Position numbers and translations under genes: made by a program. From Tetmemena sp. SeJ-2015 (taxonomy: Eukaryota > Ciliophora > Spirotrichea > Sporadotrichida > Oxytrichidae): a stretch of DNA of 64,000 nt. This document shows positions 3,790 through 51,828 of the stretch, piece after piece (position 1 is the stretch's first letter; each line of letters begins with the position of its first letter). The notes below the pieces were generated by a model. The model saw only the letters and a list, made by a program, of their open reading frames with translations. It searched no databases and was not told the origin of the DNA. The stretch spans positions 1 through 64,000 of the forward strand of contig JAJKFJ010020725.1 of NCBI GenBank assembly GCA_027382625.1, in the 5' to 3' direction.

Positions 3790-4330
3790 TTATGAAGATT
3801 TCTGTTTCTAAAAAACAAATAAATGAAGAGTTTTAAAAAGCATTTAAAACTTCTAAAGTATTCTTCGAGTAGGTATTTGATAGGGAGTTTGCTTAAATTT
3901 AAATGCTAGAAGAACACTTTTACTCAAGTTGGAACCTTAGTTAAATGATCCCCACTCTTCTGATAGTAGGGCCCACAAGGAATAAATGGTCGAAGTTAAA
4001 ATCGCGAAGGAAAAACAGGATGGAGAATCAAGGGTATGTTGCCTGGTATTTGTTTGCCGTCTCTTACGGAGATAGTATTTCAGGCTAGACCACTGGAATT
4101 ATTCTATAACATCTGAATGTGTTACCTAAAACTGTGGAGTATCCTTGAACTATCAGGAGGGCGTTGTCATTTTTCCGCCTCTAAGACTAACCAGCAAAGA
4201 CAGATGTTATTTGGCTGAGCCCAAAGTCAATGAGCTCAGAGAGGTTACTAGCGGGGGTGTTAGTTTGTTTTAGACCACTTAATTCTGCTTAAAAGATATG
4301 GCGATTCACTTCCACTCGTGACGTATTGAC
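3790..4330 (+). CDS. Possible small unidentified gene
   Basis: This stretch is clearly richer in G and C than the flanks. From ATG at 3793 a frame stays open for about 125 codons (start MKISVSKKQINEEF). A second frame across 4,090-4,320 gives a protein-like stretch with GVVIFPPLRLTSKDRCYLAE and KVNELREVTSGGVSLF before TGA. A GTATGT...TTTCAG intron of about 50 bp near 4,035-4,084 could link blocks, but I could not make one consistent model. No family is recognised. It could be a small gene or a coding segment of a gene lying elsewhere. Confidence 0.3.
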
Positions 4331-12400: not shown

Positions 12401-13954
12401 CATGTGCATCTGGGATCAAGCAATTGTGCAAGGCGTCCAGGAAATAGCTTTAATTAATCATTTTCCTGAATTCAATTGTAGTTGTAAAGGTTTCTTCATA
12501 TAGTGGAGCCAGCTATGTATGCAAAGTATGAAGACAACTCTTCTATGAATGAGGACATGGACATCGTAGATTGCATCGCAGAATATTTCTAGAAAGACAA
12601 CCTGGGCACACTCTCCAACTTGCACTTGGCACTTTGCGATCAATTGGGAGCGAGGGGACCCTTCAAATTGCATCGAGCTGAGTAGACTTATCTCAGTGGC
12701 AGTCGATTTTGCTAAACATGGAAAGTATGTTGAGAAAGACAAGTATTCCAAGCAAAATGATATGGTCAAAAGCAATCCTGACTTCATGGAAAAGGGAAAC
12801 TCAAATTTAACTACAAGGCAAAGCGATCTCATTCGAAAAATAAAGAAGAGACAATATTTTTCTAATTCATCTTTAAATATATTCTTGGAAAGCTCTATAG
12901 AGCAGTGGACTGTAAACAGTTTTTCAAAAGATGTTTGGAGCTAGACTTTAAGAACTCTATCTTATTTGAATACAACTTCAGTCCAATAATAATAAGGCCC
13001 TTCTTTTTTAGGGGTGCAGACAGATCCTTCCATTAGTATTTAATATTCTTAAATGTAAAGCTTCAATAATTATGATCTACTAAAAATAGGTTTACACGCC
13101 TTTGACAGAATAGTAGACCCCTTCAACTCTGACTTGATTTCTTTGATGGTAACTCACAATTTGGCAACTGAGGCTGAGTTGTTTTAATTAAAAAAGTGAG
13201 CATAATTCTTCTCTCTACTTTCCTAAATTAATGTTCTGCACTAATTTGCAATTCTCCTTTTGCGACGACGAATTCCGAGACCTGGCTACCTCCCTGGGAA
13301 CTCAAAAAGACGATGATGCCGTGGAGAGTCTAAACTTGAAAATCAAGCAACTCATTAGCAAATATCGCAAGGAGTTTGAGATACTTCAAAAAGACTTAAA
13401 CGCAGACAGTTTACAGCTCTCAATTGCAGTGTACTTCGCAAGCTACTTCAACTCTTGCAATGGAGACAGCTACGAATATGTTTCGAACGCATTAGACAAG
13501 GTATTTATAAGATGTAGGTGTGTGTATATCTAAATTATTTGTGGACAATGATGTTTAAGCTTTCTTCGAGCACTGGGATAATCTGAAGAGAGATAACGAG
13601 CACGAGTCCTTCACTGAGTTCCTAGAGGAGCTCAAAGATTTCTCAGCTTTAAATATAAAGTGAGTCCTTAGTCTCGTGATAATCGTTATTTAAGCTTACA
13701 AGAAGTGTTTGAAGCAGGGGCTGATGAACAATCCAGAGAAGCTGCGAGCTCTTCTACACACGAAATAGTTCTTCAGTGTGCCGTGGCTAGTCTGCTACGA
13801 GCATTTGCTCAAGCAAGGACCTTACACGAGAAAAAATAGATTTCAAGATTTAAATTAGCATAATTAATTAAAAGATATTTAAGAAGAGATAATGAATACC
13901 TAGTATGGGGAAACTCTTAGGAAGATGATCTCGGATACAGCTCTAACTGATTGA
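6425..13954 (+). CDS. RNA-dependent RNA polymerase, copy 1 (germline form)
   Basis: This is a eukaryotic cellular RdRP (RNA-silencing type), which makes double-stranded RNA from single-stranded templates. The earliest block that aligns with copy 2 begins near 6,562 (VFKVGTVMKSVNPFNEDSLL); the ATG at 6,425 is only a candidate. Later blocks include an FTDG segment (8,838-8,860), SAFQVRLGGVKGVL after the 8919-9802 insert, LNRQ-type region with ALGVPDNVF, the NPCSHPGDIRKL motif (12,234-12,270), the catalytic MSGGDLDGDVYMCIWD block (DLDGD at 12,381-12,395), VAVDFAKHGK, and a C-terminal FFSVPWLVCYEHLL region ending at TGA 13,952. Several GT-AG introns and at least two pointer-flanked IESs interrupt it. 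A one-base frame slip is apparent near 12,670. A separate membrane-protein-like frame lies between 10,306 and 10,860. Catalytic aspartates are present. Tandem partner of copy 2 downstream. Confidence 0.82.
8919..9802 (+). other. IES, pointer GCT, 884 bp, in RdRP copy 1
   Basis: GCT at 8919-8921 and 9803-9805 bracket the insert. Joining gives SECSAFQVRLGGVKG in frame. The paralogous site in RdRP copy 2 carries a 39-bp insert with pointer GCTCT. Nearly all of this insert is the foldback element at 8,957-9,799. Confidence 0.82.
8957..9799. mobile_element. Foldback (inverted-repeat) element, about 843 bp
   Basis: The left arm (8957 to about 9300) and right arm (about 9461-9799) are near-perfect reverse complements over about 340 bp with a roughly 160-bp centre. 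The termini read AATATTATACTTTTATCG and its complement. The arms contain distinctive GC-rich stretches such as CCCACCACCCAAAACGAGC. No coding frame is apparent. It is different in sequence from the foldback elements at 1.3 kb and 26.6 kb, but alike in plan. Confidence 0.9.
10306..10860 (+). CDS. Membrane-protein-like frame nested inside RdRP copy 1
   Basis: An open frame from ATG 10,306 begins MWNSTDLAIAMATAATQSTL and runs in good, non-repetitive protein-like sequence (for example YPFDYQRLIFSIMQFEEF and SNIFKIILESEDLDQNLH) to a single strongly hydrophobic segment, SFLIIVLIIFYITYQIL, followed by a Lys/Gln-rich tail. RdRP coding resumes at about 10,868 in a different frame (YDYFGPSKIFCPIF). RdRP copy 2 has only about 90 bp at this place, so the block is an insert specific to copy 1. 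It might be a gene segment of an unrelated locus, or an IES-borne frame. No family is recognised. Confidence 0.45.
11819..12233 (+). other. Candidate IES, pointer AAT, 415 bp, in RdRP copy 1
   Basis: AAT at 11819-11821 and 12234-12236 flank an AT-rich insert. Joining gives EGEVIVTNPCSHPGD, one residue shorter than copy 2 (EGEVIVTKNPCSHPGD), which is uninterrupted. An intron starting at GTAACT and ending at ATAAG is possible but would lose more of the motif and would be three or more times longer than other introns here. Confidence 0.65.
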
Positions 13955-17400: not shown

Positions 17401-19772
17401 TAATTATTCAAATGTAGCTGATAATGCATAGGATGTATATGAGGATGATGAATTTTCTTATAGCAAGGCTGAGATGAACAAGAACAGGGAGCTTTGCAAG
17501 CAACAGCAAGTATGATCTGGATGTGTTCTTTGGTCCCAGTAAGATCTTCTGCCCCATCTTCAAGCATGCAATCAATCAATCGTAAACATCAATTTAAACA
17601 AATTATATTTCCCTAGCATGTACTCTAGTAGACCTTCTAGCAGATAGAGGTAGTCAATATACCTCCATAAATAAACTATCAGCAAATTTAATTAAGAGTC
17701 TAAGAAAGGAAGCTGAAGGAGTTCACAGAGGAGCTCAAAATGAGAGTATAAGTTTGATCCTCTCTATAAATTAATGTTTGAGCAAGTTTTCAAGATGGAG
17801 GAGGAGCCAATCTTCAACTCTATTCTGCAAAATATGGTGCTCGGCTACGCTGTAAACCTGAAGAAGAAGGCCAGAATAAGGGTTAAGAAAGCAGCTGTGC
17901 TGATTGGAGTAATAGACGAGCAAGGGATTCTAAAAGGAGAATGAAATCTATGTTAAGATTATACTTATATATAAAACCTACTCACACCCACATACTTGCA
18001 ATCAATTGGAATAAAATGTTTCATGAGTAAGATTAACAGAGGCAGCTACGATATGGACTTCGTCTATGAGCAGGTGGTCAAAGAGGCTGATGACGTCAAA
18101 AACCACCGCGGGGACAAGACTAACATCAAGTTGCTACACACTTACCAGGACGAGTAGATTGAGGGCGAAGTCATAGTCACAAAAAACCCCTGCTCCCACC
18201 CGGGAGACATCCGCAAGCTGACCGCCATCTCTGCTTTTGACGAAAGGACTGAAAAATTTGAGCACCTCTTCAACGTCATAGTGTTCTCGAGTAAGGGAAT
18301 CAGACCCACTCAGCACAAGATGTCAGGAGGAGACTTGGACGGTGACGTCTACATGTGTATATGGGATGAAACCTTCGTTCAGGAGCTCAAAGAAGTAATA
18401 ACCTTGTTATAATATTACAGTCATTTCAAATTTGAAAAGTACGCAAGCCAGCTATGTATGCGAAGTTCGAGGAAAGCATCAAACCCAAGGAGAACGCAGA
18501 CATCGTGGATTATATCATGGAGTACTTTCAGAAGGACAATTTAGGCCATCTCGCAAACGTGCACCTGGCTCTTTGTGACTAGATCGGTCCCACTGGACCT
18601 GACCATCCCCACTCTTAGAATTCAACCTCTTACTTTTTTAATTGGTTGCTATTTAGAAGCTGAGTTGGTTTATTTCAGTGGCCGTGGACTTTGCAAAGCA
18701 CGGAAAGCATGTGGACAAGGACCTCTACTAAGATATAGAGAAGCAGTTGGTGCAGTGGCCTGACTACATGGAAAAAGAAGATATCAACAGACAGACTGTC
18801 AAAAGTCAAAGCGTGCTTGGCAAGCTAGTAATTAGAGAGTATTTGACTTTGATTGATTATTGGTAAGCTATACAGAGGAGTCGACTGCAAGGAGTACTAC
18901 AAGAACTGCATGGAGCAGGACCATAAGAATTCAATTCAGTTCAGGTACAAGATAAACCCAATCATCATCAGGCCTTTTAAAGTCCAGACTAATCGAGACT
19001 TCCATCAGTACCTCATAAACTCAGCTAATCACAAATTTTGAATACCTACTTATTGCAATGAGTTTAGAGGTGTATGACTAGCTGGTGTTCCCCTTCAACT
19101 AAGACCTGAAGGAGTTGATGGTCACTTACAACTTCGGCAACGAGGCAGAGCTCTTCTGCACTACTCTCATCATTATTACTTAAATATTACATGTATATAT
19201 TACTTACAATCTCAACTTCTCGATGGTGGACGAAGGATTCAAAGACTTAGTAAATGGCATGGGATCCCAAAAAGGATGAAAATGCAATTCAAGAGCTAAA
19301 CAACAAGTTACGAGACTTGATAAATAAGTACAGAGATGTGCTTCGCTCCTTGAAGGAAACAACCGGTGCTCAGGACTTCAGTCTGGCTCAAGCAGTTTAC
19401 TTCGCTGCATACTTCAACTCAGGCTGCAACTCCACTTGCTATTACGTGTTGAACCAAAGCAACGATGAGCCTCTCACTCGCTTCTTCCACCACTGGGAGG
19501 AAGTACAGCGAGAGAACAGCCCTGAGGAGAAGGGTGACTTCCTGCTGAGGCTGAGGGAGTTCTCCTACTACAAGAGGTTCATGAAGAAGAGCATTCAGTT
19601 CACGAATCAGGAGAAGCTGAGGAAGCTGCTCTACTATAAACAGTTCTTCAGTGTGCCCTGGCTCCTCTGTTATGAGCATCTCCTCTCTAGAGGAGGCTTC
19701 TTTAGGGAAGATTACCCAAATATGGCCGAAGACATTACTGAAAAGGAAGATGACTAGAGCGACGACAATTGA
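14430..19772 (+). CDS. RNA-dependent RNA polymerase, copy 2 (germline form)
   Basis: A tandem paralogue of the upstream RdRP, more compact. The ATG at 14,430 (MRPKTQAEKAIDLF) is followed at once by a GTAAGT...ATATAG intron. Recognisable blocks: SKFEVGTLL with FIPLFPDMYK (14.8 kb); LTLFEPMTREQTNRVIRAY (16.25 kb); CFTDGCGNISEQ (16.92 kb); SAFQIRLGGIKGVF after a 39-bp insert; YLNRQVILLLNSLGVSDD (17.24 kb); NPCSHPGDIRKLTA; catalytic MSGGDLDGDVYMCIWD (DLDGD at 18,332-18,346); VAVDFAKHGKHVDKD; KLYRGVDCKEYY; and a long C-terminal block with FFSVPWLLCYEHLLS ending EKEDDQSDDN-TGA. Glu/Gln positions read through TAG (for example HTYQDEQIEGE). One-base slips occur near 17,410, 17,500 and 17,940 (an extra G after ILK), so this copy is either slightly decayed or contains read errors. 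Expected role: small-RNA biogenesis, here possibly genome-rearrangement-linked silencing (inference). Confidence 0.85.
16986..17024 (+). other. IES, pointer GCTCT, 39 bp, in RdRP copy 2
   Basis: GCTCT lies at 16986-16990 and 17025-17029. Joining gives EKCSAFQIRLGGIKG in frame; leaving the insert in gives an early TGA. It is too short and lacks GT-AG ends for an intron. The same site holds 884 bp in copy 1. Confidence 0.82.
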
Positions 19773-28187: not shown

Positions 28188-28741
28188 GTTTTGTGTGTGA
28201 ACACAGCTTCGTCAGCACATACAAACTTCACGCTATCCCTCTTACACCTGAGCAGCGTAAATATATTTCAGATTATTATAATAAATGGCTTAGTGAAGTC
28301 TAAAACGCACTTCACTCGATTCACAGTTTTGTACGTTATGCCATTTCAACGATAGATGTTTGCTACAGTCTACGGAGAGATCACTCCAAACTGAAGTGCG
28401 CTTATTGGCGAAGAGGATCAATCAAATGATTTATGTGCACGAAACTTAGAAGTGCGATGAGGAACAGCTGCAACTCCTAACTTTCTCATCTGCAACTTTC
28501 AAATGCGAGAGTATAGTGTGGCACTCTCAACATTTTTGCGATGGAGTTGATGTTGAGAACTGGCTATTACTACTGATAAGGGTGACTACATCCATACCTT
28601 AGAGTCAAAATGAAACTGAGATAGGATGGATCATGTTGTTATTTTTGAGTAATTCCGCGTTTGACTCGCATGATTATAAGTATTAATAAAGAAATTAATT
28701 ATACACAACTTATTTTCACTTTCTTATCATATTATGTGGTT
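28188..28741 (+). repeat. Dispersed repeat, copy 3 (most compact full copy)
   Basis: Begins TTGTGTGTGAACACAGC and ends TTATCATATTATGTGG. It contains all blocks shared by copies 1 and 2 and is the best reference for the element (about 554 bp). It lies about 80 bp before the first codons of YHYH gene B, as copy 1 does before YHYH gene A, so repeat and gene were probably duplicated as one unit. Confidence 0.87.
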
Positions 28742-29258
28742 TGAATAAACTCATCTATTAATTTATTAAGTTCTTAAACGAGCCTTATATAATTTTTTTC
28801 TTATAATTATTATTTGCTTTTAGCGCCTACAACTCCTGCTCCGACAAACCCAAGAGCCACTCATACGGAAAAATAGAGATGGGAGCCAAGCCAAAGTGTT
28901 CCTACAATTCAACCAAGGCTTCCTAAACAGGAAGCTATCTCTGAAAAACTGTTTAAGTGCAAGTATTCACAGATTCAATGGATACTACAAACAAGACTGG
29001 AAATAATGCCACAATGTTTAATAAACTCTAAAGCACAAGAGTCTCCTGTTCAGGAATGACAATGTGCAACGGTCTTTATCAAAATCAAGGAGGTGGGTGT
29101 GAGTGGAACAGAAAGTTTAAAATCTCTTGCTCTCAAGAGGGAGATTCGGTATTTATTCGAATTCAGACCAATAAATATTATAAGTTCAGCCACGATTTTT
29201 CAAAAAATTTTCAGTCTCCTTCTGTAAAGACTGGACGAACGAGAACGAAGCTCTTATT

Positions 29259-36685: not shown

Positions 36686-39600
36686 TCATACTTCTCCACC
36701 CCAGCCTTTGGAGAAGGATTTGTTATCTAAGTTCCAGGCATTCTTTATCATCAAGTCGAAATACTCGTCGTTATCGATAGAGCAGCTGATGTTGTTGTAG
36801 TACTCGACAAACTCAGGAAGTGTGATAGTTCTATCCTTTGCGTCAGGGTTCTATAAATAAGGTTTACATATTAAAAGTTGAAACTTACTGATAGGGAATA
36901 GTGCTACTCGAAAGTGTCAAGGAACTCATAGAGCACATCTTCCTCGCTCTTCTTGCCCATCTTAACATCAGGGTGGTTCTTGGCGTTGTAGCGACCCTTC
37001 AAGTCCTCAATGTTGATACAGCCGTTGCCATCCGCGATCAAACTTCTTGAAAGCTACAGTTACTATGGTGCGGCGTCTATCATTCATCTTGCCCACAATT
37101 GTGCGGAGGAACTCATCGTAGTTGATTTCTCCATTGCCATCGCGGTCGAAAAGTCTGAAGATGGTGTCTACCTCGCTAGGATCCTGAGTAATTCTATAAT
37201 CACGCATGGCCTTTGCAAACTCTTGGCGGTCAAGTGTCTTTGACTCATTATCGTCCATGATTTTAAAGACTCTCTTGATTCCGTTGATGCCTCTTGCTCC
37301 TCTTGAAATGATCTTCTCGCGAACAGTGTTGAGCAGTTGCTTATCAGTAGGGGATAATTGGTGCGTTAACCTGGTTGGAGGGTCCATACTTTTGACTAGG
37401 AGGGAGATCGTTTGCGGACTGAACTCCATTTGCCTTGGAGACTTAGTTCCATGATCAAGTGCCTGCAACTGGCATGCCGCTAGATACTGCATTCTACTTA
37501 GCGGGCTTCTTGGTATAGACTTGCTCAACTTCATGCGTGGTGGGGGCATTGTTAAGCTCTCCGAAGAGAGATCTATGCATGTCATACTTCCACTGCTCCT
37601 TGGAGTTCTTACCATAAACTGCGGGGACGTTTCCAGCAGGCTTGACAAGCCGCCTGAGGGGTCGACTAAATCTAGGTTCCAGACTCCAGTCATGAAGATC
37701 TTGAAGAGATTGTCGTTGTCGATCACTGAGGACACGAACTGATGGTACTGCATGAACTCCTCTAGACTCACTGTCTTGTCAGGCTTGAAGCTCTGAGACA
37801 CATTTAAATGACAATATGATAAAGTTAAGAGCAAATACTGATCCTCACTTTATGATTGTGATGGGTAGAGAAGAGATCGAAGAACTCGTATCTGCACTCT
37901 TCAGCTGTCTTCTATCCGCTGCTGACATCTGGGTGGCGAGCGGGATCGAACTTGAACTTCACTTCATCAATCTCAAGCACACCATTTCCATTTTCATCAA
38001 GCTTGTGATACGCAAGCACAACCAGTCTCTTTCTAAGATCATTAAGTTCTCCCAAAAGGGCATCCATGAACTCGTCGAAGTTGATCGTTCCATCTCTATT
38101 CTTATCAAAGACTGCGAACACCTGCTCCGCCTCCTCTTAGCTGCATCCAACCTTGTAGTCATCAAGAGCTCTTTTAAACTCTTGCATATCAAGGGCACCT
38201 GAGCCATCAGAGTCCATGATCTTGAATTGCCTTTTCAGTCCCAAGAGACCCTTGACTCCACGCTTGAAGAGCTTCTCCTTGAATCTGCCAAGATTGATTT
38301 CATTCTACTTCTGCACTGCCATGTTGTTGAGTGGTTGGGGGTACTGCAGCTTTTGCTGAGTGCTTGACAAATGGCCTCCATACTGCTTGTTGATATTGGA
38401 GTCAAAGGGGTTTTTGCCGCTCTCAAGTCCAGTCACCTGATTGTACTCTCTCTGGCCCTCGGATATGTGCTTATTGTTGGCTACACTTTGGCGCATGGGT
38501 GAGCCCTGTCTTTGGTAAAGAGAGGCTTGAGACTGACCCAAAACGAAGTCGGAAGAGACCATGCCAGAGCGAATGGTGGGCTGACCATGAGGATCGACGT
38601 TTTTGCGCTCATAAGCTCCTCCCATTTGGTTGCTGTTAGGAGGGCGTCTTGGGGGACCGTTGTCCTCAGAGGCCCAACTCTTTCCATAATTCTAATAGGC
38701 AGCTGAGTCTCCTGCAAGGTTCCAGGCAGCATTCATCATAGCCTGGAAGTACATATCGTCGTCAATACTTGCGCTAATATTGGCATAGTACTCTTGGAAC
38801 TCTTCCTGGGTGACTCTGAAATCTCTCTCATTGTCGTGCATCACATTGTGGTGAGTCTCAAAAGTCTCCAAGAACTCTCCTAGCACTTGCTCCTCAGTCT
38901 TTCTACCTTCGAGCACAGCTGGGTGCTTCTTTCCGTTGTAAACTCCAACCAGATCCTGGACTTCGATCACACCTGAGCCGTCTCTGTCGAGTTTGGCAAA
39001 TGCTCTGTCAACTAAGTTCTTTCTGTATTCGCCAAGTTCACCTCTAATGACTCTGAGGAACTCATCGTATTATATGGTGCCGTCGCGATTGATGTCAAAA
39101 GCATTGAACAGCACTTGCACGTCCTCAGCTGCAACCTCAGCCTTGAAATCGCGGACTGCCTTTTGGAACTCTTGCAACGAGAGAGACTTAGATCCATCGT
39201 CGTCCATGATCTTAAACACTCGCTGCAAGCCAATAATGCCTCTTGCTCCTCTCTGCAGTACCTTCTTTCTGAAGATCTCAATCAGCTGCTTCGCTCTAAT
39301 AGAATAGTTAGCAATCATTATTTCACCACCACCACCAATAAATAAAGGGGCCAATACTCCCTTAAATATCTTTGTTCTGCTTTTAAGATCCACTGCCAAT
39401 TTGGGGATTTAACTTACTGCTAGGTATTTGCGACAGGCTGTCTCTTCACCTGCTGACCCTTGAGACCCTCAGAGTCGTTTTGGAAAATGATGGCGCTGAA
39501 TTCCTTGTAGTCGAGAGATCCACTGCGGTCCTGATCGTAAACTCTGAAGAGTGGCTCCAAGTCAGACTGCGCATAGTAGAGACCAATCTTTTCCATGGCC

Positions 39601-39995
39601 TTGACGAAGTCAGGGAGAGTGACGCTGCCCTTGTCATAGATGTCGAAGTACTTGAACATCTTAATGAGGCATGCCTCCTCAGTCAACTTGTGGTTGGACT
39701 TCTGAAGGAGCTTCTCTTTCAGCTCTCTCTCAAATCTTAAGTCATTCAGTATTATGATAATAATAACATTGCAATCAAATCTAAAATGATGGTGTTAAAG
39801 ATCAAGAAATTTGGGAAAGGAAATTTAAAAGGATCTATCAAATGTGATGTTATGGCTATCTCTCTTGTTTTCAAAATCAAGATGCCAGTTCGTAATGCTG
39901 CGATTATAAATTATAGATATCGATAAAGCGCAAGTCTCATCTCTGGGCTATTCTCTGATTGAGGTATCTTACCTTGCTCTAAATCCTGTAGCCAT
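36686..39995 (-). CDS. Large EF-hand protein with three calcyphosine-like modules
   Basis: ATG at 39,995 (MATGFRAR, then a GTAAG intron) to TGA at 36,686; about 970 residues after removing four short introns. An N-terminal EF-hand pair (loops DIYDKGSVTLPD, DQDRSGSLDYKE) is followed by three copies of a calcyphosine-type unit. Each unit has a RGARGIIGLQRVFKIMDDD-like start, paired loops (DINRDGTIQYDE, DRDGSGVIEVQD; DKNRDGTINFDE, DENGNGVLEIDE; DRDGNGEINYDE), a NGKKHPAV-like segment and a C-terminal AWNL block. A Gln/Ser/Pro linker separates units 1 and 2, and another separates units 2 and 3. Several loops keep Asp/Asn and the -Z Glu, so they should bind calcium; others (HDNERDFRVTQE) look weaker. 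An extra G at about 37,034 breaks the frame in the last unit, although all following codons (NGCINIEDLKGRYN) are conserved: probable read error or recent mutation. A ciliary or cortical calcium sensor is plausible (inference). No IES was found in this gene. Confidence 0.85.
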
Positions 39996-40537
39996 TTTAT
40001 AGTTTGTCGATATCTTGTTTAAGTTTTATTTATTGATAATTTTTATTTCTTAATATTTCAACCTCTTTTATTATTCACAAATATTGGCAATTCACTGTCT
40101 CTCTCATTTCAAGATTATTCAGTTAAAAAATCTATTTGTAATGAAATTTGATATTATTATTTTTCTCTAAATAAAATATTTGTGCAATAAATACCTATAA
40201 CTAAAACTTTAGTCTGCTTCTATAGAAGGAGTTTCTTGCATTTTAGAAATCGCACTCTTAAAGAAAATAAAAGTTGTAACACAAAACATAATATTTTAAT
40301 TATCTTGTAAAAAAAAAGACACATAAAATTTTTTAAAATTGAATAATTTATTATAAAAAATTTAAATTTATTATATTTTAAAAGAAATTTAATTTAATAA
40401 ACTTAAGGAAGAATTGATCTAAAACTGGCTAAATAAATATTGCAATAAATGATGAGAGAGTAAACCTGTGAATAACTTTCAATAGCGAAGGCAAATGTTG
40501 TAAATTATTAAAATGAATTGTAAAAGAGATAATTTCC
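39996..40537. promoter_or_regulatory. AT-rich region upstream of the EF-hand gene
   Basis: About 540 bp between the EF-hand start (39,995) and the inverted EF-Tu segment. Presumed to hold the EF-hand promoter; no specific element identified. Confidence 0.35.
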
Positions 40538-40606
40538 TCAAGCCAAAATCCTAGTAACCACTCCTTCTGCCACTATTCTCCCTCCATCCATCAGAATAAA
40601 TCTCTG
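40538..40606 (-). CDS. Terminal coding segment of EF-Tu copy 1, inverted and upstream
   Basis: Read on the minus strand, 23 codons give QRFILMDGGRIVAEGVVTRI then L-A and TGA. This is the C-terminal barrel end of EF-Tu (bacterial type RFAIREGGRTVGAGVV). The main gene, 40,970-42,870 on the plus strand, stops just before this segment. Both ends carry the 8-bp pointer CAGAGATT (40599-40606 as its complement, and 42863-42870). The segment must therefore be inverted and moved to rebuild the gene: a scrambled germline gene. Confidence 0.9.
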   Translation of the reverse strand, partial: QRFILMDGGRIVAEGVVTRILA

Positions 40607-40969
40607 TACTTATTATAATACAATATTACTCAATTATATATTCACTATTTTATTTTCAGAAAATTGAGTTACAATTCTTTCTTTTGCTTTTAATTAAACT
40701 TGTATTGGAAAAATTTGAATTTAAAGTAAATTCATCTTGTGTATAAAGTTATAACAACTAGATTTCTTATCATCTCCCTTTAAATATTAAAAAATTTTTT
40801 GTAATTTTTCAAAAAATCAAAATAATTTAATTTTAAAAAATTTTAATAAAAATGAGAAAAAAAATTAAGAGAGTAAATTGATATTTTTTAATCCCCGAAA
40901 ATTTAATTTAGCATAATATTTAAAAGACTCTATTTCTTTTCTTCTAACTTTACCCTTTATCCCATTCTA

Positions 40970-42870
40970 ATGGAATCAACTCACTACGAAAGAACCAAGC
41001 CACATATTAACGTTGCTGTCATTGGTAAGCTTTAACTCTGTGACTATTAATTACTGAATCTTACTAAAGAGCTTTATCTTCGAAGAAAGTTGTTCCATAT
41101 ATTCTCTTACTTCATTCATCTATGTATTCTGAGTTTTATCTTTAGGCCATCAAGGACATGGAAAGACATCTCTAGTCTCAGCTATCACCAAAGTTTATTG
41201 TTTAATAAAATCTATTCTAGTCAAGATATTAATATTTATAAATGTTTGATAATCAGAGAAAGGTATGTCCGAGTTTTTGAGATTATGTGAAGACATTATT
41301 TCCAAGTGTCCAGACGTTCAAACTCTTGGATTAGATCTTGATTAGCTTATGAATAAATATGCTTTAAGCAATTTAGTTTCTGATCAAGAATCTTCGTTTT
41401 AGGGCTGGCAGCATTTCGTGAAATCTCTTCTCTAGATAGAGATCCTTAGGAAAAGGCAAATGGGTGCAAATCTATTATAATTTAAGAAAAGAAGTAATGG
41501 GATAATAGGCTTTTATTTTATAGAAAATGAAAATTAAAGATACACAAATTAATCTAAGAGAGTGTTTACTGATTCATAATAAATTAAATAAAGGCAGGTC
41601 TATCTTAGAAAATAACTTATTTATGAGTGCACTATTCTGCCAAAATATGTTAACTTTGAAACAGATAGCAGGCACTTCTCAATCACTGACACACCAGGCA
41701 AATCAGACTACTTCAAGACAACTATAGCAAGCTTAACCAATATCGACCACGCCATACTCGTTGTTTCATGTACTGATGGGCCCATGAAGCAAGCTAAACA
41801 ACTCACGCGCTTCCTTAACAACTCCTTCATTATAATAATTTATCAATCAAAGTCAAGTTTTTTTTTAACCTTTGTGAGACATCTTGTCGTTTTCATGAAC
41901 AAAAATGACCTATAAAATGAGTCTGAGCTTTTAGAACTTCAAGAGTTTGAAATTAGGGAAATGCTAAACTCTTTAGGTTTCGCTGGAGATGACATTTCTA
42001 TCGTTAAGGGCTCTGCAATATAGGCTTTAGAAGGGAACTATCAAGGCGTTGAGAGTATTGAAAATCCCATAATATGATAAGAAAGTGAGAATAGGTTGTG
42101 TTTCATTAATTTCTATATTAATACTTAGACTATCATAAATTTAAATCTTAAAAAGGCATTCTAAAGTATTCTAGGAAGAAGACGTCTTTCTCATATTCTC
42201 TGAATTGTATCCTGCTTCCTCTATTTTAGATAACTGAGTGTTTCATAGGTTGGTCAATATATTAATTATACACATCTTATTCTCACTCTCTTATCATATT
42301 ATGAGGTTTGATTCAAGCTTTGCTGTACTAACTCGATTAGTTGCCTGAGCCAGAGAGAGATATTGATAAACCTTTCAAGCTCTGCATAGAAAATATTTAC
42401 GAGATAACTGGCAGAGGCATAGTTGCCAGTGGAATAATTGAGAGAGGAAGAATCTAGACTGGTGATGAAGTCTGTATTGCTGGTCTCAGAGGAGACTAGA
42501 AATAAACTGTAGTTACAAAAGTCTAAATATTTAAGAAGGAGGCGGACATAGGCCGAGCTGGCGATAGAGTAGGCCTTCTCTTGAGAGGAATAGAGAGAAG
42601 CGAGATTAAGAGAGGACAAGTTCTCATAAAGCCTGGCTCGATGGATACTCACACTCAAGTCTAGGTCTAAATTTACAATCTCACTAAAGAGGACGGGGGA
42701 AGAACTAAACCTTATTTTAGAAAGTTTACTCCTCAGATGTAGATTCAGACTGCTAATGTTACAACTTAGCTAGATTTTCCAGAGGGAATGGAAATGGTAA
42801 TGCCTGGAGATAACGTCTGTTATAATATCACACTCAAGAAACCTATCATCATTTCCCAAGATCAGAGATT
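40970..42870 (+). CDS. EF-Tu-like GTPase, copy 1 (scrambled germline form)
   Basis: ATG 40,970 starts [19 protein letters not shown] with no targeting peptide. A GT-AG intron (41,025-41,145) precedes the P-loop [18 protein letters not shown] 27-bp IES, a second intron (41,263-41,402) and IESs at 41,464-41,626 and 42,057-42,310 follow. Later motifs: [12 protein letters not shown] (switch II), MNKND (guanine-binding NKxD), [35 protein letters not shown] and VMPGDNV. The final segment lies inverted at 40,538-40,606. The catalytic His of the canonical DCPGH motif is Lys (DTPGK), as in copy 2. After the 27-bp IES is removed, a TGA remains in frame at 41,247-41,249, so this copy may be dead or may contain an error. 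Canonical EF-Tu delivers aminoacyl-tRNA to ribosomes; with altered P-loop and switch II this paralogue's role is uncertain. Confidence 0.85.
41202..41228 (+). other. IES, pointer TTAATA, 27 bp, in EF-Tu copy 1
   Basis: TTAATA at 41202-41207 and 41229-41234. Copy 2 has a 27-bp IES at the same codon (48,382) with pointer TGTTTAATT. Splice signals are absent. Confidence 0.75.
41464..41626 (+). other. IES, pointer GTGCA, 163 bp, in EF-Tu copy 1
   Basis: GTGCA at 41464-41468 and 41627-41631. Joining gives [20 protein letters not shown] leading into the DTPG motif, the expected switch I to switch II stretch. The equivalent IES of copy 2 is 311 bp with pointer GAGTG. Confidence 0.85.
42057..42310 (+). 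other. IES, pointer ATT, 254 bp, in EF-Tu copy 1 only
   Basis: ATT at 42057-42059 and 42311-42313. Joining gives ESIQALLYQLDQLPEPE, matching [17 protein letters not shown] in copy 2, which has no insert. Its right-hand 50 bp (about 42,261-42,308: ATTAATTATACACATCTTAT, then TCTTATCATATTATG) match the end of the dispersed repeat. Confidence 0.78.
42261..42308 (+). repeat. Dispersed repeat, terminal fragment inside an EF-Tu IES
   Basis: Matches the last ~50 bp of repeat copies 1-3 and ends a few bases before the IES right pointer. Confidence 0.72.
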
Positions 42871-42879
42871 AAGAATTTA

Positions 42880-43340
42880 AAATAAATTGGTGTTTTCTTT
42901 TTTAAAAAAAAAAGGCTTTAAAAAAATTTTTTAAAAAAAAAAAAATTTTCTTTTTAATTTTTTAAATTTTTAAAAATTAGCTTTTTTTAAATAATTTTTT
43001 TGGGGTTTGAAAATTATTTTTTTTTTTTTTTTTAAGAAAGGTTTTGAATTAATTAAAATTTAAGAAAAAAATTTAAATTACTTCAAATTGATTTCGGGCT
43101 TTTTAATTTTTAAAAATTCCCTTTAAAAAAAACTTTTAATTTTTTTTAATATTTAAAATAAACCCCAAAACCCTATATACTTAGATAAATAGGGGGAATA
43201 GAAAATTAATAAATCAAAAATAAAAACGAAAAAAAGACGCTTTTCCCAAAAATAGCAAAAAAAACATTTAAATTTTAAGAAAAACCCCAGATCTCTCAAA
43301 TCAAAAAAAAAGGACCTTCAGGCACCCCCATTAATTTATC
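42880..43340. other. Homopolymer-rich low-complexity DNA
   Basis: Long runs of A and T, with occasional runs of C and G, and almost no ordinary sequence. It resembles poorly resolved read data rather than the AT-rich spacers elsewhere in the window. Confidence 0.6.
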
Positions 43341-45600
43341 ATTTAAATGTTAAAAATATAAAATCTCGTATTTGCCACTTCAGTTTTAGTGTTTAGTTTA
43401 CATGAATAGTTAGTCTTAATGTTAATAAAGAGTTGGTTTTAAAAAAATTTCAAAATGATCGTGGATGAGGTCCGGGAAAGGGTATTAAGACGGGGGGCCA
43501 CTCTTTGAGTTTTGTCTTAATAGAGGTTTTTGCAATATGGACCTCGTAAAACCGAAATTATGAATTTAAATTGCTTTCGAAAGCTCTATAATACCTTCTA
43601 CTATATTTAAATTATTAGTGAAGTGGATTAATTCTTATAATTTTAAGGATTATGGATTTCAAAAATTTTTGAATTAAGACTGCTTAATAGGGCCATGGCC
43701 GGCCAAAACACCTAAAATGACCTACCATTAATAGGAGGTAAGTCTTAAAAATCCACCATTACACTCATTTTAATCAGCATTTAAAGATCTATCATCAGGT
43801 CTTATTTTGGCGGCTATCCTAATAAAAATTGGCAAAAATAATTGCAAAATAGAGGATTTTCATTGCCAAATTTGAATTTAGAATTGTGACTATTTAATTT
43901 AGACTCCCTTTTTAAATTTAAATTTAAAATTTTAATATATTTTATTAGTATTATTAATTAAGACAACCAAATAGACTTAATTCAAAGGGACCGCCCTACT
44001 GATTCCGAGTATTTAGACTTAATAAAAAATCTCTCCCTTTAGACGATTTGGCTATCAATTTGGTACTTTCAGATGCTGAAAACTCGGCAATTAAAGTTTC
44101 AGACTCTAATTCGCTCTCTCAATAAAGTTATCTTCATTCCAAAATAGATGACTTAATTCCTCATGGCAATGATTTTTAATGAAGAGGTCTTAAATAAATA
44201 AACAAAACTGCTTAATACCCAACTTAAATCGATTAATCTCAGCTTAATATCAACACTAATAACTCTTGAATAAAGAATGAACTCGGAATTCCTCAATTCA
44301 AAGGGTTTCATAGAACATCTGACTTTTGAGGATATTTGAAAAAATGGCTCCAATTGACTTAATTGAGAAGATCTAATTTGCGAAATCTCCTCAATAGTAA
44401 CCTTGCTATCACTTTTTTTAAGACTCAATTAATTTATGCTAGCATTATCTTTATTGATGAATCTACAAATCTTTTAGTTAATCCTGTGAATTAAGATTCT
44501 CATATATTTCTTGTCTTAACTCAAATTCTCCAAGGTACACTATTAAAATGTGAGATATGACTAGATTAAATAGAAATAATTAAGACTTCTCCAAATAAGT
44601 AAGAGGATATTTAATCTCAATTAATCTCAACTCAAAGTAATCAATCTATCAATAAGTCAATTACTCAATGAATAAAGTAATTTGATCTCTGCAAAAGTGT
44701 AGAGCTCTTTAACTTTCACTTGGGCTTCACATATATGACTGACTAACTACTCAAGAATTAATAATTAAGAAGAGTCTTAAAAACCATAATTTTCAATTAA
44801 GATTAAGACATTTAGTAAGCTCATTGAACTCTCTTTTAAGACTATTTTTTCGAAACTAACTTACATAATGATAATGAGAATCTTTGATTTGCTAATTACT
44901 CTCTCTCAACACATCTTTAGAGTAAATTTTTTCCCATTAAAAGAATCAATTTATTTCTCAAGAGGGTCTTAATTTACTCCCGAAATAATTCAAAAAAACA
45001 TGGGCTTAATTCTATATATGGGAAAACTATTAAGAGCTAAGAGATTTCCTTTAGAGCTGAAAGGATTTCTCTATAGAGATTTCCTCTAGACACGGAAGGA
45101 ATTCTATAATACCTTATTATTGGCGTATTCTAAATAGAAACAGTGCCTAAATAGTACATCAAAGCAATTAGATAGCCTTTTTTATTGATAAGCGATCAAA
45201 TCAATTAAGTTCAAAATCTTAATATAAGAACCTATTTATATTTAGAGCTAAGATTTTAATTAAATCATATTTTAGAAAGGCTTTCATCTAATTCTAAAGA
45301 AATTACAATTCTCTTTAGCATTTGTAAAAACTGAATAATCCATAGAACTTTTCTCTAAAAAAGGGTAGAAAATAATTGCTAATTACTCATATTCCATCGA
45401 AGGTTCTAATATTCTAGTTTACAGTAGTTAATAAAGCTTAATTAACTTCATCTTCGTAAAAGATAAAAACTTAGGAATTTATAAGAAAGTCATTAGAGAA
45501 AGGTGACTTAAAATTTCTAATAACATTTGAGATTGTCTTTCTAGTCTCTTTTTGAGGCTTATAATGCTTTATATCACTTTCCTTTACAAGAAGTGAAAGG
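43341..45600. other. Spacer rich in TCTTAA/TTAAGA-type motifs
   Basis: Between two low-complexity blocks, the motif GTCTTAA, GACTTAAT or its complement recurs many times (for example near 43,430, 43,510, 43,740, 44,030, 44,190, 44,510, 44,570, 44,780, 44,970). A minus-strand open stretch at 44,120-44,480 has no recognisable family. Confidence 0.4.
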
Positions 45601-47150
45601 GTAAATTAATTTTTTTATTTTAAAAAGGGTTTTTAATTTTAAATTTTCAAATTTTTTAAAAGAAATAAGAAAATTATTAAAAAAAAAGGAAATTTTTAAA
45701 AAATAAAAAAATTTTATTAAAAAAACAGTCCTAAATAAAAAAGGGAAAATAAATTTTTTTTTTAAAAATTTTAAAATAATTTAAATTAAACAAATTTTTT
45801 GGGTTTATCGAAAAAAGTGAAAAAGGGGGTTTGCCCAAAAATTTAAAAATTTAGCTTCCGGATGATTAAGCTAATCAAGAGGGACCTAACGAGACCCTTT
45901 TTGCGAAAATTTTTTCCTAAAAAAGTGCCATTTTTGGACCATTTTTGGCCATTTTTCCCCAAAATTTTTTTTTAACTAACACCACCAATGGATGCGCAAT
46001 ATATGATTACTTTGGCGAAGTGGGGTCCATTTCAAGTGTCTCGAAGGGAAAGGCGGTCAAAAAGCCAATTGAAGGAAAAAAATTTCCCCAGAAAATTGCC
46101 TTTTTGGAAAAATTTTTTTGAGGGCTATTGAGAAAGGGCTATGATAGGCTGATAGAGCATAGTCGATTTATCCGTGAATCTCATTTTCTAGAGATTTTTA
46201 ACGGCTGGAACAGGAGATAAAGGCCCTTTCAAAATCGAAAAAATGCATATTTTTACCATTTTTTTTACCAAAAAATTACCCAAAAAAAAATTGGGTTTTT
46301 TTCCCCTTAAAAAAAAGGGTTTTTTCATTAAAAAAATTTAAACAATGAAATTTTTCTCAATATTAAAAATAATGAATGAAATACAATACAAATTTTTCTC
46401 TTAATTTAGTCTTATAAGTTAATTTAATGACTATAAGAAACTAAGAAAAAAATGTCTAAAGAGAAAAAAAGACATCTAACCCATTAATACACTAAAAAAA
46501 TACAATATAAATGCTGATTTCGTGAAATGAAATGATGCTATTAACTCATTGCAGTGTAATTAACATAGTTGTGATAGTAGTAAGATAAAATCACGCAGTT
46601 TAATTGATGAATTTAAAGAGTCTTTAGATGATCTAAAAGTCAGTTCAATGTGTCCATAGCCATGTGCTAAGAGCAACCTTAGAATGGAGTTATCTCATCA
46701 CAGAAAATTGATAACACTAAACAACCTAGGTGATTCTTTATCTACTCATCAAGCTCTATCATTTGGTATATTAATATAGGAGATTGTAAATTTTTTCGGG
46801 TTTTCCCCAAATTGCCTTTTTTAGAAATTTTAGAGATTTTCCCCCGTTTTAATTTTAATTTTTTTGCTAAATTTTTTAATGCCCTCTTTATCGTAAATTA
46901 AAGATTATTAAAAATCTATTCACTATTTATTTTAAAGTATATAGGTTATGGGGGGTTTTTATTTCAATAAATTATTTACCCTGCCAAAATAAATGTGTAA
47001 AACTAAACGGTATTAAGATTTTTTAAATGCACCTTGGAAAAATACAAATCTCTTCAAAACTTATGTGATTATAAATTTTGCGGTCGTTCCCAATTTTCCC
47101 GGATTTTTAAAAATTTAAGGGCTTTTTTTAAAAAAAAAGAGTTAAAAATT
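45601..47150. other. Second homopolymer-rich low-complexity block
   Basis: Runs of A/T with GGGTTT and CCCAAA tracts, mixed with short normal stretches (46,000-46,230 and 46,360-46,790). No gene seen. Read quality is again suspect. Confidence 0.5.
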
Positions 47151-47465
47151 CACTCCTAATTCAAAAAGTTTAACTAATTATACTGCTATGGTGAAAGCTC
47201 ACGAGTTACAAATTTTACATAGTGTTAAACTTATTTACTCAATTAAAAAGTCTCTTATAAATTATAAGTAAATTCGAAGTATATTTATGAGGTGGCAAAC
47301 GGAATTAAAATACCTTGAATTTTAAAGCCTGAATACAAAATCTGGATAAAAAAATAATCGTAAGAAATGATTGTAAATAATAAAATAAAGGAGTGAGAGT
47401 GATTCCTGCACTTTAAATTGTAAGCTGAATGTTGTTGTAAATTATAGGCTCTTTGTAAGATACTC

Positions 47466-47534
47466 TCAAATCAAAATCCTAGTAACCACTCCCACAGCCA
47501 CAACTTTCCCTCCATCCATCAGAGTGAATCTCTG
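47466..47534 (-). CDS. Terminal coding segment of EF-Tu copy 2, inverted and upstream
   Basis: The minus strand reads QRFTLMDGGKVVAVGVVTRI then L-I and TGA. The main part (48,156-49,933) ends at the same point with pointer CAGAGATT (49926-49933), whose complement is at 47527-47534. Same arrangement and same pointer as copy 1, so the scrambling predates the duplication. Confidence 0.92.
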   Translation of the reverse strand, partial: QRFTLMDGGKVVAVGVVTRILI

Positions 47535-48155
47535 AACTTATTATAACTAATATTAATCATGAGAATAATATATTTTAGAAGTGGAAATTTATTATGATTC
47601 ATAAAAGAATAAAATTAAGTATTCCAAACCCATCAAGGTATTTTAAAATTTAAGTAGATAGTAAAAATTAACTTGAATATTATTTCCACTTCAAGCTTAT
47701 TGCTGTTCTATTTTAAGGACACTTAGAATTTCGGAATAAATAAAGTAGGCAAATCCTTTTTCGAGAGCTAGTACTGTTTTTAAGTGAATATTTCATTTAA
47801 TCCCTTTGATGTATTCAATTCAATGAATGTAAATATAAAAGCAAGATGAAATCATAAGACAATGCAATAAAATCAAGATTCAAAGCATTCTTTCTCCTTC
47901 TAAATTGTAAATAAAAAATATGAAAATTTTAAATTCTAAGAAAGACTACTTTATATTTCATTTATGCGCAAATAATTTTGATTTTCTTATTTACGATTGT
48001 ATTGATGAATTTTTGCAGTTTTGTAAGATAATTAATCTAGGTTAATAATCGGTAGAGAGTAAGCTACATATCTTTTAATCGACTGCAATATTTGTATAAT
48101 TTAACTTTAGATTTACATTAACCTCTATAACAACTTTAGCCTTCAATCCAACCAT

Positions 48156-49933
48156 ATGGAGTCATCTCACTTCGTAAGAACCAAGCCACATGTCAACGTT
48201 GCTGTCGTCGGTAAGCATTTAAGCTTCACAGCTAAATTCTAGATTCACCAAAGGCAACTTTAGTTTAAATCCAAAGTTTACCCTATATTATCTTCTTTCG
48301 CTTATCATATTCTTAATTTTATCTTTAGGCCATTCAGGTCATGGAAAGACATCCCTAGTTTCAGCTATCACCAAAGTTTATTGTTTAATTATATCTATAC
48401 TCTCAAGATGTTTAATTTTCTAATATCATAAATAATCAGAGAAAGGTACTTATAAGTCTTCTAATTTTGCTTTTAAAAAAGACATAAATGCAATTAGTCT
48501 TCCTCCCCGTTCTCACTCTTAGATGAGATTTTTGTCTTCTTTTAAATTGATTTCTATGGTAAAAATTCTTCTTTTTAGGCCTGGCAGAATTTCGGGAAGT
48601 CTCCTCTCTCGATAAAGACCCCCAAGAAAAGGCAAAGGAGTGTATAAATTATATTTAAAACTTAAATATAATAATCAGAGTTTATATCCTACTATTATCT
48701 TATAATAAACTGCTAAGAAGTTTATTAGAAAATTAATAGATCTAATGTTTTAATTGAAGAAGCAAATCTTGATAGGGAAATATATTATTGAAAATTCATC
48801 TATATATCTGAGTCGCTTTTTTTAAATAGGCCACAATTTCAAGAAACAAGACAGGCAAATATATCACAAGTTAAAACATTAAAGAGAGATCATAAATATT
48901 TTACGAATAAATTTTTGGTCTGACCATATTAAAATAATTAAATTTTTGAGTGCACAATTCTACCAAAATATCTAAAAATAGAAACAGAGAGAAGACACAT
49001 ATCCCTCTCTGACACCCCAGGCAAATAAAACTACTTCAAGACCACTCTTGCAAGCTTAACTAATATCAACCACGCCATCCTCGTTGTCTCATGTGCAGAA
49101 GGGCCTACACCTCAAACAAAGCAATTTGCTCGCTTCCTCAGAAACACCTCTAAAATACTCAATCAACCTTACTTTAAGTATTTGACCTCTGTGGCGCATC
49201 TAGTTGTTTTCATGAACAAACTAGATCTACAAGGCGACCCCTAGCTCATAGACCTCCAAGAGTTGGAGGTAAGGGAGATGCTAAGCTCTGTATCTTTTCC
49301 AGGAGACGACGTAATTTTTGTGAGGGGCTCCGCAACTTAAGCTCTTGAAGGGGATCAACAAGCAATTTAAAGCATTAACGCCCTACTAGAGCAACTAGAT
49401 TAGCTACCCGAGCCAGAGAGAGATATTGATAAACCTTTCAAGCTCTGCATTGAAAAAATTTATGAGATAGCTGGAAGGGGCATAGTTGCAAGTGGAATAG
49501 TTGAAAGGGGAAGAATCAAGTCAGGTGACGAAGTTGTTATAATTGGCTTCAAAGAAGACGAGAAAAAAACTGTAGTTACAAAAGTCCAAATATTTAGGAA
49601 GGACGCAGACACTGGCGAGGCTGGGGATAGAGTTGGCCTTCTAGTGAGAGGAATCTAGAGAAGCGAGATACAGAGAGGACAAGTTATCATAAAGCCAGGC
49701 TCGATGAATACTCACACTTAATTCTTGGCTTAAGTTTACAACCTCACTAAAGAGGAAGGGGGAAGGAATACGCCCTATTTTAACAATTTTACTCCTCAAT
49801 TGTACACTCAAACCGCTGGTGTGACCACTTAATTAAATTTTCCATAGGGAATGGAAATGGTCATGCCTGGAGATAATACCACCTATACCGTCACGCTAAA
49901 AAAACCTATCATCATTAACGAAAATCAGAGATT
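48156..49933 (+). CDS. EF-Tu-like GTPase, copy 2 (scrambled germline form)
   Basis: ATG 48,156 starts [19 protein letters not shown]. Intron 48,211-48,328 precedes the P-loop [17 protein letters not shown]; a 27-bp IES, intron 48,446-48,578 and a 311-bp IES follow. Removing them gives [20 protein letters not shown] then [85 protein letters not shown] and MVMPGDNTT. The C-terminus is the inverted block at 47,466-47,534. The frame stays open throughout, so this copy could be functional. The switch II His is Lys (DTPGK), which in classical EF-Tu would cripple GTP hydrolysis. No mitochondrial targeting sequence is visible. Confidence 0.88.
48382..48408 (+). other. IES, pointer TGTTTAATT, 27 bp, in EF-Tu copy 2
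   Basis: TGTTTAATT at 48382-48390 and 48409-48417. Removal leaves VYCLIFQYHKQSEKG in frame, joined through the next intron to GLAEF. Confidence 0.82.
48637..48947 (+). other. IES, pointer GAGTG, 311 bp, in EF-Tu copy 2
   Basis: GAGTG at 48637-48641 and 48948-48952. Joining gives [18 protein letters not shown] in frame. Confidence 0.87.
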
Positions 49934-50017
49934 TAAAAATTCTGATATTATTTTTATAAAAATAATTGAATCAATTTATCCTTCTTACTCCTGGAATTTC
50001 ATTTAAATATTATTTAG

Positions 50018-50084
50018 GCCACCAACAATTCGGTAAGACAACTCTAGTGTCAGTGATCACTAAATTCTATTTATTAAATAGACA
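50018..50084 (+). pseudogene. EF-Tu-like P-loop exon, third copy, truncated
   Basis: After a TATTTAG splice-acceptor-like end the exon reads GHQQFGKTTLVSVITKFYLL, the P-loop exon of the neighbouring EF-Tu genes. It stops where the large palindrome begins at 50,085. No other part of this copy was found on the far side. Confidence 0.75.
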
Positions 50085-51828
50085 TATTGTAAAAATCAGT
50101 GGTATGATCAAAAAAGTTTAAAAATAATCCGGGTTTGAGATATTATTATCATCAAGGAGTGAGGAAAGGCTGTCCCCCAATTTATTAAGCTTACTTTATA
50201 TATATTTATAATTTAGTTTTTTATTAGTTAGTGTATGGGATCTCCCTTCTATTTACAAGAATAACATATGCATACTTTTAATACCTACAGAGGAGCGAAC
50301 CAAATTGACAAACTTATTTCTCCGTCGTCAATTCGCTCATTATCCTCATTATATATTACTTAAGTGTCTTTTAGGATGTTTTATTCAATATTTTAAATTG
50401 AACCATATGTTCTCAAAATAATGCAAGATCTCTCTCTCAATGCTCAATAAGTTACCCTTCGTTCAAGAACTCAATGCCTTCTTTTATCAAGGACATCCAA
50501 TTTGTGAACCTAGACTCTGGAAAAGTAATTCCACTCTCAAAAGTGAGTTCGGCGCGCTAAATTTTCGCGCTTGATGCTTTACCTCATAGATTGCTCTCTC
50601 TTTTTATATCGCGCCTTCCTGCCTTTAAATAAGTTATTTGCTTCGCTTATAAAACTCGAGGCCGCCACCTTTTACAACTGTAAATCTCCATTCATCATGT
50701 TTGAACGCAGTAAGACTCCCTTGCCTAAAGAGTCTTGATCAGCAGCTTGGAAAATTCATGATCGCAGATTAGTAAGAGCTAAAGTACAGATTACGCTCTT
50801 CATTTTAAGCAATAGGGTGATTACAATCAAAGTAATTGCTTCTCATTAAATGAGGATGCTCATTAAATAGAAAACTCCACTTATAAATAGGAGTCGTAGA
50901 ATGAAGCTCTCTTAAAGAGTCAAGCCGTGCATGGTTTCGAAACGGCAACCCAAAAGTTGAGTCAAGTCAAGTCTACAGACAGTTTCTCATTCTAACCACA
51001 TCAAAGATGCACTTCAAGCCTCTGCGCTTTTTAAATATCAACCTTGCTCATGGCGAAGCAAGCTAGCCTCATCCTTTGAAAAAGTAACCTCTGCCCACCT
51101 AAGAAAGCATCTGAGGGAAATTTTAGAAAATCGTTCCAGACAAATTTGAAGGCTTTATCAAGCTGCTGTCTATTTCCTGATCGCTCAATACCTCTAATTA
51201 TTGTATTCTATCGCAACTTTAATTGGAGCCAATTCACTTTATGTTTTTTGAAATGAAGATGAGTCGGCCATTCTTTGAAACAATGTCCTGGAGACTCCTC
51301 AAGATAGTTTCAAATTTTGCTCTCTAGACTGATCTCCTTGTCTGATTAAAATTCTGAATCTTTTAGCCTCTGCGATCCCTGGTCTGTCTTTTTTTATTGG
51401 TCAAATTGAAAAAACATCATCATTAGTGTGATCTTCTCAGAACTCTAACCCAGTTAGCAGCTTTCCTTGACTGCATTTACAGACTTTGTATTCTCAATAA
51501 GTTTTCAAGCTTGGAGTAAATCTTCAATAGGGTAGCAGCTCCAGAAAAATAAAAGATCAAAGTCAATAAGCTGTATTAATTTTTACTTCCCTACAATAAT
51601 AGTCGACGTTCATTCATCTTGATTTAGTTTGCTGAGTTTGAAAAGTAAAATCATCTGACTGAAGTTGAATTACATTTTCAAAATTGAAAGCACCTAATGA
51701 ACAAGAAGTTTAGAGTAAGAAAGTGGCATTCGAAACTTTATCAACGCGTCAGCAATTTTAGAATTTTTGAATAGAAAAACACAAATCAGAGCTCGAGAAA
51801 TAAGTAAAACACATAAGAATGCTGAACC

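Follow-up and report, generated by a model that had tools for sequence, protein, structure and literature searches.

Inverted gene segments are a standard and well-known class of scrambling in the germline genomes of spirotrich ciliates. The actin I gene of Stylonychia and Oxytricha has scrambled and inverted pieces (PMC2394655). Inversion is the only kind of disorder in 21.4% of the 5285 scrambled chromosomes of O. trifallax and in 69.4% of the 2901 scrambled chromosomes of Strombidium cf. sulcatum (PMC10901763). In the comparison of Oxytricha with Tetmemena, scrambled joints are conserved with changed letters of the pointers, the short repeats at the two sides of a joint; scrambling is tied to paralogy, scrambled genes are linked to local duplication, and odd-even scrambling is argued to tend only to grow (PMC9797194). 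We describe another case of this class, a gene of the elongation factor EF-Tu family in a 64,000-nucleotide stretch of DNA (the window). Positions 40538-42870 very probably hold a scrambled EF-Tu paralogue in its germline (micronuclear) form, here called gene A, whose last macronuclear-destined segment is inverted and lies upstream of the start codon.

Gene A starts with the ATG at 40970. On the plus strand its match to EF-Tu breaks off after the octamer CAGAGATT at 42863-42870, the candidate pointer that ends the last main coding segment (42317-42870). A second copy of CAGAGATT stands as the reverse complement at 40599-40606, upstream of the gene; both positions, reported in an earlier note on this DNA, are exact to the base. 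The minus strand from 40606 to 40538 opens with CAGAGATT and reads QRFILMDGGRIVAEGVVTRILA followed by TGA. It supplies codons 373-394 and completes EF-Tu domain 3, so that a misplaced and misoriented coding segment completes the protein once it is flipped. The earlier note had counted 23 inverted codons; the tail is there, with 22 codons and the stop. The same note took the main reading frame as a single open frame, which it is not, as two introns and four gaps resembling internal eliminated sequences (IESs) must first be taken out. After removal of the two GT-AG introns and the four pointer-flanked IESs, and with the tail flipped on, gene A has 394 codons and no stop. Among solved EF-Tu proteins its product scores best with 6i8r (418.9 bits); the alignment runs from residue 4 to residue 393 in each protein and has two one-residue gaps. 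The Pfam profile of domain 3 (GTP_EFTU_D3) gives 58.2 bits over positions 2-91 of 106 when the frame is read straight on, and 78.2 bits over positions 2-105 with the flipped tail, which places the joint beyond chance. The assembled protein passes the Pfam cut-offs for this domain and also for GTP_EFTU (132.6 bits) and domain 2 (51.6 bits). Its score with the EF-Tu equivalog family TIGR00485 is 431.3, below the curated cut-off of 522.4. By homology gene A is an EF-Tu paralogue, and this homology does not imply EF-Tu function.

A tandem paralogue, gene B (47466-49933), lies 7 kb further on and has the same layout. Its inverted terminal segment (47466-47535, minus strand) encodes QRFTLMDGGKVVAVGVVTRILI followed by TGA and carries a 9-bp candidate pointer TCAGAGATT at 47527-47535; the main body (48156-49933, plus strand) ends with the other copy of TCAGAGATT at 49925-49933. 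Assembled gene B also encodes 394 amino acids, 287 of 394 identical to those of gene A, with no gaps. The block containing both genes is found again on contigs C4656 (stretch L009) and C2963 (stretch L010); identity is 97% between these two and 88-89% between them and the window. CAGAGATT is present at both sides of the joint in all six copies of A and B on the three contigs; these amount to four clearly distinct ones, two of the contigs being 97% alike. Frames were rebuilt for four of the six copies, those in the window and in L009. All four encode 394 amino acids with no internal stop, and the compared pairs are gapless.

The block in the window covers 38393-50088. Outside it no match to the C2963 and C4656 stretches was found at E 1e-20, except for one copy of the repeated element that is described below for gene A. 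The window block was also considered as a haplotype of the same locus as the C2963/C4656 block, and this was rejected because its flanks are unmatched at that threshold. The window on the one hand and C2963 and C4656 on the other look like two places in the genome, and C2963 and C4656 look like two versions of one place.

The same inversion is seen in a canonical EF-Tu gene on contig C2643, one of 35 matches of a protein search in the same genome. The assembled protein has 425 amino acids, scores 601.5 with TIGR00485 (cut-off 522.4), and contains the motifs RGITIN, DCPGHAD and NKCD, which we take to be the usual EF-Tu motifs. It is 41-42% identical to the A/B paralogues (165 of 394 aligned residues, 42%, for gene A). 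Judging from the protein type, the gene is probably mitochondrial in origin. The last coding piece of this gene (RFALREGGKTVAAGVITKLL...) lies ahead of the start codon and is read from the minus strand, at 2017-1958 of stretch L020, where the N-terminal match is at 2399 and the match of the body ends at 4150. The body ends with ...GGAGAAACTGAGATAAAA and the flipped tail starts with ...TTGGAAACTGAGATTCGC; the two have in common an 11-bp run GAAACTGAGAT. A short repeat flanks the joint on both sides in all these genes, CAGAGATT in A and B and GAAACTGAGAT in C2643. The alignment puts both joints at matching codons, K-L-R|F in C2643 and D-Q-R|F in gene A. Both introns are common to C2643 and the A/B genes, whereas the candidate conventional IESs are not (pointers ATT, GATATC and ATT in C2643). 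Most simply, the inversion would be older than the duplication that separated canonical EF-Tu from A and B.

The repeats were compared with chance expectation. A match of 8 bp in any register between the two 28-bp neighbourhoods of the gene A joint arose in 444 of 20000 shuffles; the corresponding counts were 93 for the pointer of gene B and 1 for the 11-bp repeat of C2643. Among 500000 random pairs of points on opposite strands, at most 3 kb apart and in fixed register, 315 had at least 8 bp in common, 138 at least 9 and 29 at least 11. What rules out a chance 8-mer is not the 8-mer itself but the reading frame together with the paralogues and the canonical gene. For the assembled frame, the ratio of nonsynonymous to synonymous substitution rates by the Nei-Gojobori method (dN/dS) is 0.126 between the window and L009 copies of gene A, 0.144 between those of gene B, and 0.25 between A and B. 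The two copies of gene A agree at 58 of 60 positions of the coding tail, at 49 of 61 in the stretch before the tail, and at 37 of 65 past the body pointer.

Unscrambling by inversion best accounts for the in-frame tail and the repeat, for the conservation between paralogues and for the dN/dS of 0.13-0.14. The earlier note had already proposed it; however, its wording of direct evidence is too strong, since we infer the joining of the DNA. Several observations speak against unscrambling. The 8-mer of gene A is weak on its own, being modestly unlikely in the shuffles. The tail by itself offers too few codons for a test of selection, with two synonymous and no other differences in the A pair and one and three, respectively, in the B pair. 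In the B pair 54 of 60 positions (90%) past the pointer are identical, with no clear contrast to coding DNA. The short pieces of gene A (an 11-bp piece encoding SEKG, and 2-bp pointers) were placed by homology and alignment alone. Finally, actin served as a positive control for inversion, and in a coarse look at 65 actin matches in the same genome, no strand flip or disorder was seen inside any gene; on contigs C2293 and C3715 the two strands each have actin matches, but these are approximately 15 kb apart.

Three other explanations were considered. Gene A could be a germline pseudogene split by an inversion, whose pieces are never joined, only the C2643 gene being used. This would agree with the score of gene A under the EF-Tu equivalog cut-off, with the loss of the histidine of the DCPGH motif, and with the repeated element inserted in the gene. 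However, frames are intact across the predicted joins in all four copies that were built, at the low dN/dS given above, and the canonical gene carries the same inversion and likewise needs flipping to be whole. We consider the pseudogene very unlikely. Even less probable is a chimeric or mis-oriented contig. The assembly does contain foreign-looking contigs with bacterial-type EF-Tu (C3167 and C1762), and at the end of C3683 (L021) an apparent EF-1alpha is joined to a bacterial-type EF-Tu with frame breaks, a stretch that is likely to be an assembly or amplification chimera. However, all six A/B copies, spread over three contigs, and the C2643 gene agree in the order and orientation of the pieces. 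Least probable of all is that transcripts of the two strands are trans-spliced, so that the pieces are joined as RNA. The genes do have GT-AG introns. However, neither the body-side pointer nor the sequence right after it contains a GT donor in any of A, B and C2643 (the pointers do contain AG dinucleotides), and a pointer copy stands on both sides, as joining of DNA predicts.

Under unscrambling by inversion, the following course of events may be suggested. The conventional IESs would be excised first, at their short pointers; such an order, with IES removal preceding resolution of the inversion, was suggested for actin I (PMC2394655). Then the inverted terminal segment would be turned round and attached behind the body, the two pointer copies recombining so that a single CAGAGATT is left. 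The predicted joint of gene A reads ...PIIISQDQ from the body, one CAGAGATT, and then TATTCTGATGGATGG; the body read straight on would give AAGAATTTAAAATAAATTGG. Splicing of the two introns from the RNA would then yield the protein of 394 amino acids. By analogy with Oxytricha, where guidance by RNA templates is known (cited in PMC9797194), a template RNA may guide the join. The layout, the repeat, the reading frame, the homology and the conservation between paralogues are seen in the sequence itself; the somatic join of gene A, its order and its guidance by RNA are inferred. As for the history, the simplest account has the inversion arising once, in an EF-Tu gene of the mitochondrial type; the divergent A/B pair would have inherited it on duplication of that gene, and it would have been passed on again when a copy of the A/B block came to lie elsewhere. 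The inversion would then be traceable within one genome through three duplications: that of canonical EF-Tu and the A/B ancestor, that of A and B, and that of the A/B block. The codon of the joint is the same throughout; the pointer has a length of 11 bp in the canonical line and of 8-9 bp in the A/B line.

Both genes, A and B, have CAGAGATT on body and tail, all within 10 kb. Since the pointer is common to both genes (8 bp, within the 9 bp of gene B), it alone cannot pair a tail with its body. One possibility is that unscrambling swaps the tails, producing A-body/B-tail and B-body/A-tail joints besides the parental ones; this seems doubtful. If it does occur, a single ancient inversion, retained through successive duplications, would work as a small switch between different C-termini of EF-Tu. 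If no tails are swapped, something besides the pointer, such as a template RNA or distance, would pick the partner. The A/B pair thus offers a natural way to test pointer sequence against other information in the choice of partner.

The coding pieces of gene A, all on the plus strand except the tail, were delimited by EF-Tu homology and by comparison with three relatives. The first piece (40970-41024) is followed by intron 1 (41025-41145, GTAAGC...TTTAG), a piece with the P-loop GHQGHGKT (41146-41197), a candidate conventional IES with the 2-bp pointer TA (41198-41251), the SEKG piece (41252-41262) and intron 2 (41263-41402, GTATGT...TTTTAG). These two gaps are read as spliceosomal introns because of their GT...AG ends and because they have the same position in gene B and C2643 (for intron 2, also the same phase). 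Further pieces at 41403-41468, 41632-41827 (...RFLNNS) and 41873-42062 (...ESIE) are separated by candidate IESs at 41469-41631 (pointer GTGCA) and 41828-41872 (pointer CCTT), and a fourth candidate IES (42063-42316) precedes the last main segment. The four gaps other than introns are bounded by direct repeats and lack GT-AG ends. The body of gene B contains introns at 48211-48328 and 48446-48578 and candidate IESs at 48381-48434 (pointer TA), 48643-48952 (GAGTG) and 49152-49190 (ACCTCT). On the evidence of reading frame and repeats, the candidate pointer-flanked conventional IESs number four in gene A, three in gene B and three in C2643.

The positions of conventional IESs are common to A and B, and the letters of the pointers differ on both sides of the gap. 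In the order gene A of the window, gene A of L009, gene B of the window, gene B of L009, the pointers are CCTT, CCTT, ACCTCT and ACCTC at one joint and GTGCA, GTGCA, GAGTG and AGTG at another. The third pointer, TA, is identical in all four. The gap at 41828-41872 at first looked open in A and B and was considered as coding; the L009 copy of gene A is 2 bases shorter there and hence out of frame. Taking out this gap and its equivalents at the pointers CCTT (gene A) and ACCTCT and ACCTC (gene B) gives a fit to EF-Tu with no gap at this place.

The fourth candidate IES of gene A (pointer AA; ATTCAA in the L009 copy) has no counterpart in gene B. It consists of a repeated element (42062-42309), approximately 250 bp long, whose inverted arms of 49 nt are 86% complementary. 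Similar copies occur on at least 34 contigs besides the three that carry A and B (40 of 1044 first-look candidates were scored), and part of another copy seems to be present at 28670-28753.

Approximately 4.3 kb between genes A and B (42889-47147) are absent from C2963 and C4656, where less than 0.5 kb stands. This stretch has degenerate inverted ends with the motif CCCCAAAACCCT (43163-43174) and may be an old germline transposon. Eight of its open reading frames (ORFs) were tried and gave no Pfam match over the cut-off; three sub-cut-off matches had E below 0.05. At 50014-50082, after the usual TTTAG, stands what is left of a third P-loop exon of EF-Tu (LGHQQFGKTTLVSVITK; weak match, best E 0.025), and no further part of a third copy was found near it. 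At the other end of the block, higher-GC ORFs (0.42-0.48) with pairs of EF-hands on the minus strand (37007-39465) overlap its start at 38393. Elsewhere in the window, pieces of a cellular RNA-dependent RNA polymerase (PF05183) at 8357-13196 and 17945-19058 fit two genes on the plus strand, in order and with no visible scrambling.

In both A and B the motif DCPGH (positions 81-85) is DTPGK, with lysine in place of histidine; the P-loop GKT and the NKxD motif are kept. The histidine of this motif in EF-Tu assists GTP hydrolysis. To judge by this residue, the A and B proteins may be slow or specialised GTPases.

TAA and TAG stand for glutamine within conserved EF-Tu. A telomerase RNA match (66.1 bits, cut-off 52) reads CAAAACCCCAAAACC on the matched strand where the family model has its template, and we take this to be the spirotrich telomerase RNA template. 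By these two features and the pointer-flanked IESs, the genome is probably the germline of a spirotrich other than Euplotes; the glutamine code together with the telomerase RNA template suggests a hypotrich-like ciliate rather than Euplotes.

No scrambled EF-Tu gene was found in a limited literature search, and the arrangement of A and B with a shared pointer is possibly new. Among the closest known cases is actin I of Stylonychia lemnae and Oxytricha trifallax, where segments inverted in the germline are likewise joined at pointers, mostly after removal of conventional IESs (PMC2394655); unlike actin I, EF-Tu gene A has a single inverted terminal segment and the rest in order. The EF-Tu case belongs to the same class as the inversion-type scrambled chromosomes of spirotrichs (PMC10901763), and differs from them in that the inversion can be followed through gene duplications inside one genome. 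The combination of a kept joint with a changed pointer, as described in PMC9797194, is found also between C2643 and the A/B genes. However, that comparison was made on orthologues of two species, whereas the EF-Tu genes compared here are paralogues, 41-42% identical, of one genome.
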